Below are positions 11,141 to 49,440 of a stretch of 51,276 nucleotides of DNA, piece by piece. This DNA is from Parcubacteria group bacterium GW2011_GWA2_40_14. Lineage in GTDB: Bacteria > Patescibacteriota > Minisyncoccia > Phycocordibacterales > DATDWN01. Where the stretch lies: positions 1 to 51,276 of the forward strand of contig LBYF01000004.1 in the NCBI GenBank assembly GCA_000996025.1, read 5' to 3'. Position 1 is the first letter of the stretch. The number at the start of each line of letters is the position of its first letter. A program made the position numbers and the translations under genes. The notes under the pieces were generated by a model, which did no database searches, was not told the DNA's origin, and saw nothing but the letters and a program-made list of their open reading frames with translations.

Positions 11141-11190
11141 AAAATCATACCAGATCTTTGCGATCGCAAGAATCTGGTATGATTTTAATT
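11141..11190 (+). terminator. Terminator after transketolase
   Basis: A 15-bp stem, AAAATCATACCAGAT with ATCTGGTATGATTTT, with a second small palindrome (GCGATCGC) in the loop. The flanking A and T runs would let it act in both directions. Confidence 0.85.
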
Positions 11191-14933: not shown

Positions 14934-15038
14934 CAATTACCACCAGTATACTGGTACTAATTATATTTTGGTACAGTATATTGTACCAAAATGAAAAAAG
15001 ACAATTTTGAATTAGCCACAGTATACTGGTGGTAATTG
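14934..15038. repeat. MITE-like element with CAGTATACTG ends
   Basis: A perfect 20-bp terminal inverted repeat: CAATTACCACCAGTATACTG at 14934-14953 and its complement at 15019-15038. In the centre is a second palindrome, TTTTGGTACA (14966-14975) with TGTACCAAAA (14982-14991). Each end is itself nearly palindromic around GTATAC. A lone related end is found at 19405-19434. There is no ORF inside. Confidence 0.65.
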
Positions 15039-19396: not shown

Positions 19397-19434
19397 GGAA
19401 AATATAATTACCCACAGTATACTGGTGGTAATTA
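19397..19434. repeat. Lone CAGTATACTG near-palindrome
   Basis: TAATTACCCACAGTA and TACTGGTGGTAATTA form a 30-bp dyad with two mismatches (19405-19434), the same core as the ends of the 14934-15038 element. The left flank GGAAAATATAATTACCCACAG (19397-19417) recurs with one change at 20658-20678. Confidence 0.55.
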
Positions 19435-20705: not shown

Positions 20706-20749
20706 CACATACACCTATCATACGCTATAGCGTATGATAGGTGTATGTG
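20706..20749. repeat. Perfect 44-bp palindrome, GCTATAGC family copy 1
   Basis: The 22-bp arms match completely with no loop. Layout: ACATACAC, CTATCA, TACGCTATAGCGTA, TGATAG, GTGTATGT. The outer octamer and central 14 bp are identical in the copy at 39889-39930, while the middle six bases differ on both sides in a paired way. It lies in the 500-bp gap between an orphan gene and rpsB. Confidence 0.8.
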
Positions 20750-38566: not shown

Positions 38567-38599
38567 TATTTTCTTAAAAAATTTTGATATACTATATTG

Positions 38600-38875
38600 G
38601 TGAAAAAAATAGACACTGTTTCAAAAAATCAGCAGGAAATTGTCATTTATAAAAGCGGGCGGGGGAATGTAACGCTTCGGGCTGATATAAGTAAAGATAC
38701 GATTTGGGCAACACTTAATCAGATTGCCGAGCTTTTTGGTGTTCAAAAAGCGGCTGTTTCCAAGCATATAAGTAACATATTTGACTCTGGAGAACTAGCT
38801 AAAAAAGCAACTGTTTCCATTTTAGAAACAGTTCAAAAAGAAGGAAACAGAGAGGTTTTACGTAAAATCAGATAG
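38600..38875 (+). pseudogene. RhuM-family protein, truncated
   Basis: 91 residues from a GTG at 38600; TATACT ends exactly 6 nt upstream. IVIYKSGRGNVTLRADISKDTIWATLNQIAELF and AAVSKHISNIFDSGELAKKATVS (given in part) match the N-terminal wing of RhuM/virulence-type proteins, and QKEGNREVLRKI is the lead-in to the YNLDxIISVGYRV motif, which is missing. The frame stops right there, and a peptide deformylase remnant follows, so the rest was deleted. The promoter spacing is still intact. Confidence 0.7.
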
Positions 38876-39194: not shown

Positions 39195-39234
39195 CATACA
39201 TTTAACAAACGCTATAGCGTTTGTTAAGTGTATG
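39195..39234. repeat. 40-bp palindrome, GCTATAGC family copy 2
   Basis: 20-bp arms around GCTATAGC with one G-T pair (39201/39228). The outer CATACA/TGTATG is shared with copies 1 and 3. It lies 30 bp beyond the stop of the PaaX/Cas2-like gene. Confidence 0.75.
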
Positions 39235-39264
39235 AAGAAATATACGTAAATTGTTAAATAAAAG

Positions 39265-39840
39265 TTAGTTATCTAACAATAGATTGAAGTATTTTTTGTA
39301 ACTTTTATCATATTCAATGGAATCAACAATTAAATATAAAAGATCTTTGCCGATTTTAAAATCAGCCTTTAGTAGAGTCACAAAGTCTTCACAGTCGTAA
39401 GGATATATCCACACGCTGTCTTGAATTCGAAGGAAGCCGATATGTAATAGGGTGTGACGGACTTTATCCCGAAGTGATTTTCTGGTTTCTGGTATGTCAA
39501 ATATAAGCATGCGCCATTTACCATCCCATTTTTTTGGCTTATCTATTTTCCAATCTTTTAGTTCTAGAGATTCTAGTACAGTTTGCCCTTTATCTGTTAG
39601 TTTAACAAATTTACCATCATATTTTAGCAACCCATCTTTGACCAACCTATCTCTGGACCGAGCCATGATTTCCTTTTGCCTTTTTCCTGGAGTAATTCCA
39701 AACGATTTTAGATATTGAAGTGAATTTGGTGCTACCATAGCAAGAGTTAAAAAACCACCTATCTTAACAGCAGTGAGTACGGCTTTTCGTATGTCATTTT
39801 TCGATTTTCTTTTACGGTATCTTTCTTCGATTGTTCCCAT
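39265..39840 (-). CDS. PaaX-like / Cas2-like fusion regulator
   Basis: 191 residues. The N-terminal half is a winged-helix-like region with a hydrophobic helix (AVLTAVKIGGFLTLAMVAPN) and the strand-turn pattern RLVKDGLLKYDGKFVKLTDKG. The C-terminal half (about 105-191) resembles Cas2/PaaX ferredoxin folds: KWRMLIFDIPETRKSLRDKV, RHTLLHIGFLRIQDSVWIYP and LLYLIVDSIEYD. No CRISPR array or cas1 is in the window, so a CRISPR adaptation role is unlikely; a PaaX-type repressor or a lone nuclease is more plausible. It lies between two palindromes of the GCTATAGC family, one about 50 bp upstream of its start. Confidence 0.75.
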   Translation of the reverse strand: MGTIEERYRKRKSKNDIRKAVLTAVKIGGFLTLAMVAPNSLQYLKSFGITPGKRQKEIMARSRDRLVKDGLLKYDGKFVKLTDKGQTVLESLELKDWKIDKPKKWDGKWRMLIFDIPETRKSLRDKVRHTLLHIGFLRIQDSVWIYPYDCEDFVTLLKADFKIGKDLLYLIVDSIEYDKSYKKYFNLLLDN

Positions 39841-39888
39841 ATATTTTAGAGATATTTTGGATAATTATTTCTTCAAACACATTTTATC

Positions 39889-39930
39889 ACATACACTTAT
39901 AATACGCTATAGCGTATTATAAGTGTATGT
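39889..39930. repeat. Perfect 42-bp palindrome, GCTATAGC family copy 3
   Basis: 21-bp arms, no loop: ACATACAC, TTATAA, TACGCTATAGCGTA, TTATAA, GTGTATGT. It shares the left flank TATC with copy 1 and differs only in the paired middle bases. It sits 49 bp upstream of the PaaX/Cas2-like start. Confidence 0.8.
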
Positions 39931-49289: not shown

Positions 49290-49318
49290 AGGTTTACTCA
49301 TACCTGTCCCTTAGCAAG

Positions 49319-49356
49319 ATACGTTAGAATCCTGCTATAGCAAGATTCTAACGTAT
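49319..49356. repeat. 38-bp palindrome, GCTATAGC family copy 4
   Basis: Arms ATACGTTAGAATC around a TGCTATAGCA centre with one mismatch (49332/49343). The central GCTATAGC is shared; the arms are unrelated to the other copies. It lies 85 bp upstream of the hydrolase start. Confidence 0.65.
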
Positions 49357-49440
49357 GTGAGTAAAATTATGTTATTAAGGAATATGCGTGGATTTATTCA
49401 TAGTGATTTATAATAGTAAGTGCTACAATAATATGTAGTA

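Follow-up and report, generated by a model that had tools for sequence, protein, structure and literature searches.

The window, by which we mean the whole 51,276-bp stretch of DNA analysed here, is contig 4 of a 637-kb genome of Parcubacteria group bacterium GW2011_GWA2_40_14 (labelled G000). It carries a gene and two flanking palindromes, at the positions that an earlier note on this DNA had given, which together form a palindrome-gene-palindrome unit of ~735 bp:

39265 to 39840, minus strand: PaaX_M/Cas2-like gene encoding a 191-aa protein with a winged helix-turn-helix (residues ~1-95) and a Cas2-like ferredoxin fold (residues ~105-175)
39890 to 39929: 5' bracketing site, a perfect 40-bp palindrome (20/20 arm bases complementary), 49 bp before the start codon
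39195 to 39234: 3' bracketing site, 40 bp (19/20 arm bases complementary), 30 bp downstream of the stop codon

The 5' site is made up of an outer arm TACACTTA, a spacer, and a core GCTATAGC, and the same outer arm and core are found in the 3' site. The two palindromes are 83% identical to one another, and where they differ both arms mostly change together. The core GCTATAGC occurs four times in the window, against an expectation of 0.28. Just upstream of the unit lies a short ORF (38597-38875) that we take to resemble the N-terminus of RhuM-family proteins and that looks truncated.

The assignment of the protein as PaaX/Cas2-like in the earlier note was borne out by Pfam, which returned the PaaX_M domain (PF20803; E=1.4e-21) together with weak Cas2 and HTH matches only, and no match to the N- and C-terminal domains of PaaX. 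The AlphaFold2 model (mean pLDDT 79) places a winged helix ahead of a beta-alpha-beta-beta-alpha-beta Cas2 fold, and its top structural matches in Foldseek were E. coli PaaX, Rv0674, and Cas2 proteins (e.g. 5zyf and 6jhz). Like E. coli PaaX (PF20803/TIGR02277), the protein has a Cas2-like domain after a winged helix and is associated with dyad sites; unlike PaaX, it is 191 rather than about 310 residues long, retains only PF20803 of the three PaaX domains, and scores 37.9 bits against TIGR02277, for which the cut-off is 264.55. With CRISPR Cas2 it shares the ferredoxin-like fold and the conserved aspartate (D115), but it is fused to a winged helix and falls below the TIGR01573 cut-off (23.1 versus 24.5 bits). 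The earlier note had reported that no cas1 lies nearby; none is present anywhere in the genome. No paa genes adjoin the window gene.

The gene had also been described as solitary, which proved to be wrong. G000 encodes seven PaaX_M paralogues, on contigs C1, C4 (the window), C6, C7, C8, C14, and C17, and those outside the window are 29-65% identical to the window protein. Within the genus, relatives are present in 6 of 12 genomes at one to seven copies each and absent from the others; across the order, PaaX_M genes occur in 95 of 247 genomes, at up to 11 copies, and across the phylum a profile of the window family matched 122 of 380 genomes, about a third of the Patescibacteria sampled, with copy numbers reaching eight or more. 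No relatives were found among 50,697 phage records, 72,556 plasmid records, and the viral contigs scanned. Several PaaX_M genes occupy syntenic places in congeners, suggesting that the gene itself is mostly inherited and does not jump, and no near-identical full copies were found at different sites, the paralogues being diverged and in part syntenic. At base level, comparison with congeners revealed neither insertion polymorphisms nor empty sites; these congeners are only ~70% identical, and their intergenic flanks are too distant to align. Diverged repeats do occur on both sides of the unit at three homologous loci (a 72-bp ligA fragment at L056, a tRNA-Leu segment at L066, and a short stretch at L078); considered as target duplications, all of these are too diverged to serve as proof of insertion. 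Separately, the PaaX-like genes of loci L056, L115, and L126 each contain one in-frame stop and are perhaps decaying copies.

The bracketing of the gene by palindromes is widespread among its relatives. At 80 homologous loci, taken from named genomes of Patescibacteria and analysed with a cross-locus control, the regions before the start codon and after the stop codon carry a common quasi-palindrome. By a score threshold, matching sites were present on both sides of 69 of 79 PaaX loci versus 10 of 537 other ORFs from the same loci (p=5e-69), so that the check proposed in the earlier note, whether homologues lie near such dyads, came out in favour of its reading. These loci are the best-scoring relatives and the frequency is lower in distant ones, with bracketing found at 17 of 25 loci in wider sampling of the rest of the order and at 18 of 27 in the phylum. 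The paaX gene of E. coli is not bracketed by palindromes and scored at background. A strict search for palindromes with mostly perfect arms recovered both sites in just 19 of 80 loci, a threshold effect, since many bracket sites keep their arms and core yet have asymmetric spacers. All seven paralogues of G000 adjoin quasi-palindromes, convincingly on both sides except for C6, where one side is clear, and each has its own family or families:

C1: TAAGATT..GCATATGC
C4 (window): TACACTTA
C6: TACACCTA
C7: TACACTTATTACTTCC and TACATTATTTTTGTAC
C8: TACGTTA
C14: CTATAAAAC..CGATCG
C17: TACCA..GCGATCGC

Dyads beside the homologues are thus the rule, whereas the sequence GCTATAGC is just one core among several, so that the rule becomes one of each gene with its own palindrome. 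We regard both the bracketing and the pairing of gene with palindrome as practically certain.

Comparison of the sites over 66 loci revealed that symmetry is high at outer positions 3-10 (0.86-0.98), low in the spacer (0.62-0.73), and high again in the core (0.94-0.99, except for the central pair), and the site is therefore tripartite, consisting of outer arms, spacer, and core. The cores found were CTATAG, CGGTCG/CGACCG, CGGCCG, CGATCG, and, more rarely, CATATG. The outer arms covary with the identity of the winged helix (Mantel r=0.38, versus 0.18 for the Cas2-like domain), while the core covaries with the identity of the Cas2-like domain (Mantel r=0.28, versus a non-significant 0.09 for the winged helix). 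Residue 141, in the QxS beta-hairpin of the Cas2-like domain, is D in 35 of 36 CTATAG elements. Over 76 elements, D, K or R, and Q, H or N at this position went with the cores CTATAG, CGATCG, and CG[GC]NCG in 35/41, 12/19, and 14/16 cases, respectively (p=8e-15, uncorrected for phylogeny). The tree requires a minimum of 17 changes in the residue-141 class and of 22 in the core class, and supported independent pairs changed in the expected direction almost without exception, although they are too few for significance. Judged from these sequence patterns, the protein very probably recognizes its palindromes specifically. At 23 of 66 loci the distance from the centre of the 5' site to the downstream start codon is exactly 17 bp, which places the ATG inside the site, and for this reason autoregulation through the 5' site is plausible. 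The proposal of the earlier note that the protein binds the dyads and forms one unit with them is thus strongly supported by the bracketing, the matched families of solo palindromes described below, and the co-variation of domains with sites, and the part that cast the protein as an autoregulator is plausible. A mobile or DNA-processing role, the other possibility raised there, may exist.

The same palindromes are dispersed through the genome. In G000, 48 palindromes reach 18/20 arm matches or more, against none in a first-order Markov shuffle. About 40 solo palindromes are scattered between genes, in families matched to individual paralogues. Those in the window include:

20708 to 20747: solo palindrome of the TACACCTA family, which brackets the C6 paralogue; identical or near-identical copies occur elsewhere with unrelated flanks
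49318 to 49357: solo palindrome of the TACGTTA family, which brackets the C8 paralogue (18/20)
11144 to 11183: solo palindrome of the GCGATCGC family, which brackets the C17 paralogue (18/20)

Among 53 solos of any kind, 22 matched the bracket sites of G000 better (p<=0.05) than they matched equally many bracket sites from other genomes. The TACGTTA family failed this test, one reason being that its arms are also present in congeners included in the comparison. Agreement between copies extends over 40 bp and no further in the TACACCTA family and over about 46 bp in the GCGATCGC family, and some TACGTTA copies have ~105 bp in common; the dispersed unit is the palindrome alone. The solos are intergenic and lie in any orientation and at any distance, including between convergent genes, without promoter-like spacing. 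A search that ignored the spacer found 54 sites in G000, of which 40 (about five of them bracket sites) have fully symmetric spacers, compared with 28 of 112 bracket sites in the 80 loci. That copies are more symmetric than their sources suggests either templating by a foldback (hairpin) or selection that favours symmetric solos. Palindromes of different families are in places clustered within 20-240 bp, resembling BIME mosaics (G000 C5:7989-8225, C6:14040-14095, C17:3030-3082, and C12:2120-2246).

Genomes without the gene are also without the sites, contrary to the possibility, raised in the earlier note, of dyads abounding in genomes that lack it. The congener G001, which is PaaX_M-free, has none, its ten palindromes all being of the A/T-tract terminator type with no shared core, while the congener G003, with six PaaX_M genes, has roughly twelve solos and bracket sites that correspond to its own genes. 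Among the 247 genomes examined in the order, the site pattern accompanies PaaX_M in 14 of 16 cases (OR 13, p=4.5e-5), and the reversed pattern gave 0. No solo of G000 was found in the corresponding intergenic regions of G001 (19 regions) or G003 (15 regions), where the sole similar sites belong to PaaX genes of G003. As copies have only the palindrome in common and no tested solo is shared with a congener, turnover appears to be quick.

A second gene family of G000 has the same layout. Two TrpR-like genes (PF01371) are each bracketed by their own palindromes:

C18, 427 to 864: TrpR-like gene
C23, 5090 to 5503: TrpR-like gene

Palindrome families with the cores CGATATATCG and CAGTATACTG each bracket one of these genes and have dozens of dispersed copies, with CAGTATACTG cores in the window at 14944-14953, 15019-15028, and 19415-19424. 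In G003 a TrpR-like relative is bracketed by CAGTATACTG, G001 has neither gene nor sites, and matching palindromes stand on both sides of 21 of the 22 TrpR-like relatives that were examined in the order. Although they resemble the PaaX_M genes in the gene-between-palindromes layout and in their dispersed solos, the TrpR-like proteins have an unrelated fold (Trp_repressor) and their sites have the cores CGATATATCG, CAGTATACTG, and CAGTTAACTG. As this family lacks a nuclease-like domain, the Cas2-like fold is not needed for the layout, which strengthens a selfish, REPtron-like reading of the layout and weakens the case for the Cas2-like domain as mover.

RAYT genes have been described as flanked in all cases by two REPs, which are found genome-wide; they are mostly single and not mobile, and the arms of their REPs change in a complementary way (PMC2817692, PMC8266576). 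The system described here resembles this REPtron (RAYT/TnpA_REP plus REP) in having a gene between its own short palindromes, many mostly intergenic solos elsewhere, arms that change yet stay complementary, and a gene that is mostly inherited while palindromes spread. It differs in that the bracketed protein is a winged helix with a Cas2-like fold and no Y1/HUH transposase (PF01797), in that the sites are not asymmetric looped hairpins with a GTAG/CGTC tag at the foot but loopless, symmetric 40-bp dyads with a conserved core and unrelated flanks, and in having several paralogues per genome. The layout is the same while protein, site type, and tag differ, and we conclude that the system works like a REPtron without being one. 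By the scores, domains, cas1, tag, and Y1 features that were tested, it is not canonical PaaX, CRISPR Cas2, or RAYT/REP.

Our preferred interpretation, to which we assign a probability of about 60%, is a REPtron-like selfish system in which a DNA-binding protein that is neither a transposase nor an HUH enzyme takes part in the spread of palindromes. A dimer would bind the 40-bp site, with the two winged helices reading the outer 8-bp arms and the Cas2-like domains sitting on the 6-bp core, whose sequence would be set by residue 141 of the QxS beta-hairpin. The gene would be repressed by binding at the 5' site, within which the start codon lies in many relatives, and each paralogue would have its own site specificity. 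Site-only copies with perfectly symmetric arms would spread to intergenic places genome-wide, with fast gain and loss, and the protein may itself move or copy palindromes, possibly by way of a hairpin or cruciform. A stronger version, in which the Cas2-like domain itself processes DNA enzymatically (as a hairpin, cruciform or palindrome resolvase) and the palindrome is copied through a foldback intermediate, would explain why dispersed palindromes are perfect while bracket sites are often imperfect; we consider it possible but doubtful. If true, this would be a mobiliser with a Cas2 fold that acts without Cas1, and would extend REP-like systems beyond the HUH enzymes.

Under a rival explanation, the protein would be a conventional transcription factor that regulates itself, or a nucleoid protein; the solos would be its regulon or chromosome-organising sites, and no mobility would be involved. 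This could account for the position of the 5' site, which at many loci overlaps the start codon or the promoter region, for a fold nearest to the PaaX repressor, and for the TrpR-like analogue being a pure DNA-binding protein. We think this rather unlikely, as the placement of the solos is not operator-like, no tested solo is common to congeners, the gene is patchy (zero to seven copies within the genus), and a repressor needs no matching second site behind the stop codon, yet such a site was found at 69 of 79 loci. It is improbable, too, that the whole ~735-bp unit is an active insertion sequence, transposed by the Cas2-like protein and leaving the solos as remnants of end-end recombination: the multicopy, patchy distribution and matching ends would fit, but the diverged paralogues are not recent copies, several are syntenic across species, the gene is absent from the phage, plasmid, and viral sequences scanned, and the perfect symmetry of solos is unexpected for remnants of imperfect bracket sites.

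Mobilisation of the palindromes as REPs by Y1 transposases (RAYTs) of the same genome, with PaaX-like proteins merely binding, has to be weighed because Y1 genes are present in G000 and G003 and absent from G001, and because Y1 and PaaX_M occur together in 76 genomes. G000 has three RAYT-like Y1 genes:

C5, 3705 to 4334: Y1 gene
C5, 20090 to 20716: Y1 gene
C6, 9803 to 10507: Y1 gene

No PaaX-type site lies within 2 kb of any Y1 gene in G000 or G003. Directly behind the stop codons of the two C5 genes are looped hairpins (TGTCAAAGG..CCTTTGACA or similar) that are unlike PaaX-type sites. The site pattern is associated with Y1 at an OR of 5 (p=0.018), compared with 13 for PaaX_M; among Y1-positive genomes it still follows PaaX_M (13/76 versus 1/70, p=0.001), whereas among PaaX_M-positive genomes Y1 had no significant effect. 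We consider this explanation very improbable, although Y1 may have a helper role. Chance palindromes or bidirectional terminators are hardly credible as the origin of the family as a whole and are refuted by the empty shuffles, the different terminator palindromes of G001 (long A/T tracts, no common core), and the bracketing of specific genes. Solos of the GCGATCGC family (e.g. 11144-11183 in the window) are often found 20-66 bp downstream of a stop codon, flanked on either side by A/T tracts, and copies of this family may have been adopted as bidirectional terminators.

Among open-licence papers, where a lack of hits is weak evidence, we found none linking PaaX/Cas2-like or TrpR-like genes to such palindromes, nor any that brings together PaaX and Cas2, or palindromes and Patescibacteria, in the way meant here. 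Apparently, this is a new counterpart, without a transposase, to the repetitive palindrome systems described in other bacteria. It occurs in organisms whose genomes are among the smallest known, and about a third of those sampled carry the genes. If the REPtron-like interpretation is right, the REPtron layout evolved anew in at least two protein families that are unrelated to each other and are not transposases. A Cas2-fold protein would then read a specific DNA site without Cas1, a possible link between Cas2, PaaX, and mobile DNA, and a simple residue-to-core recognition rule would be suggested.
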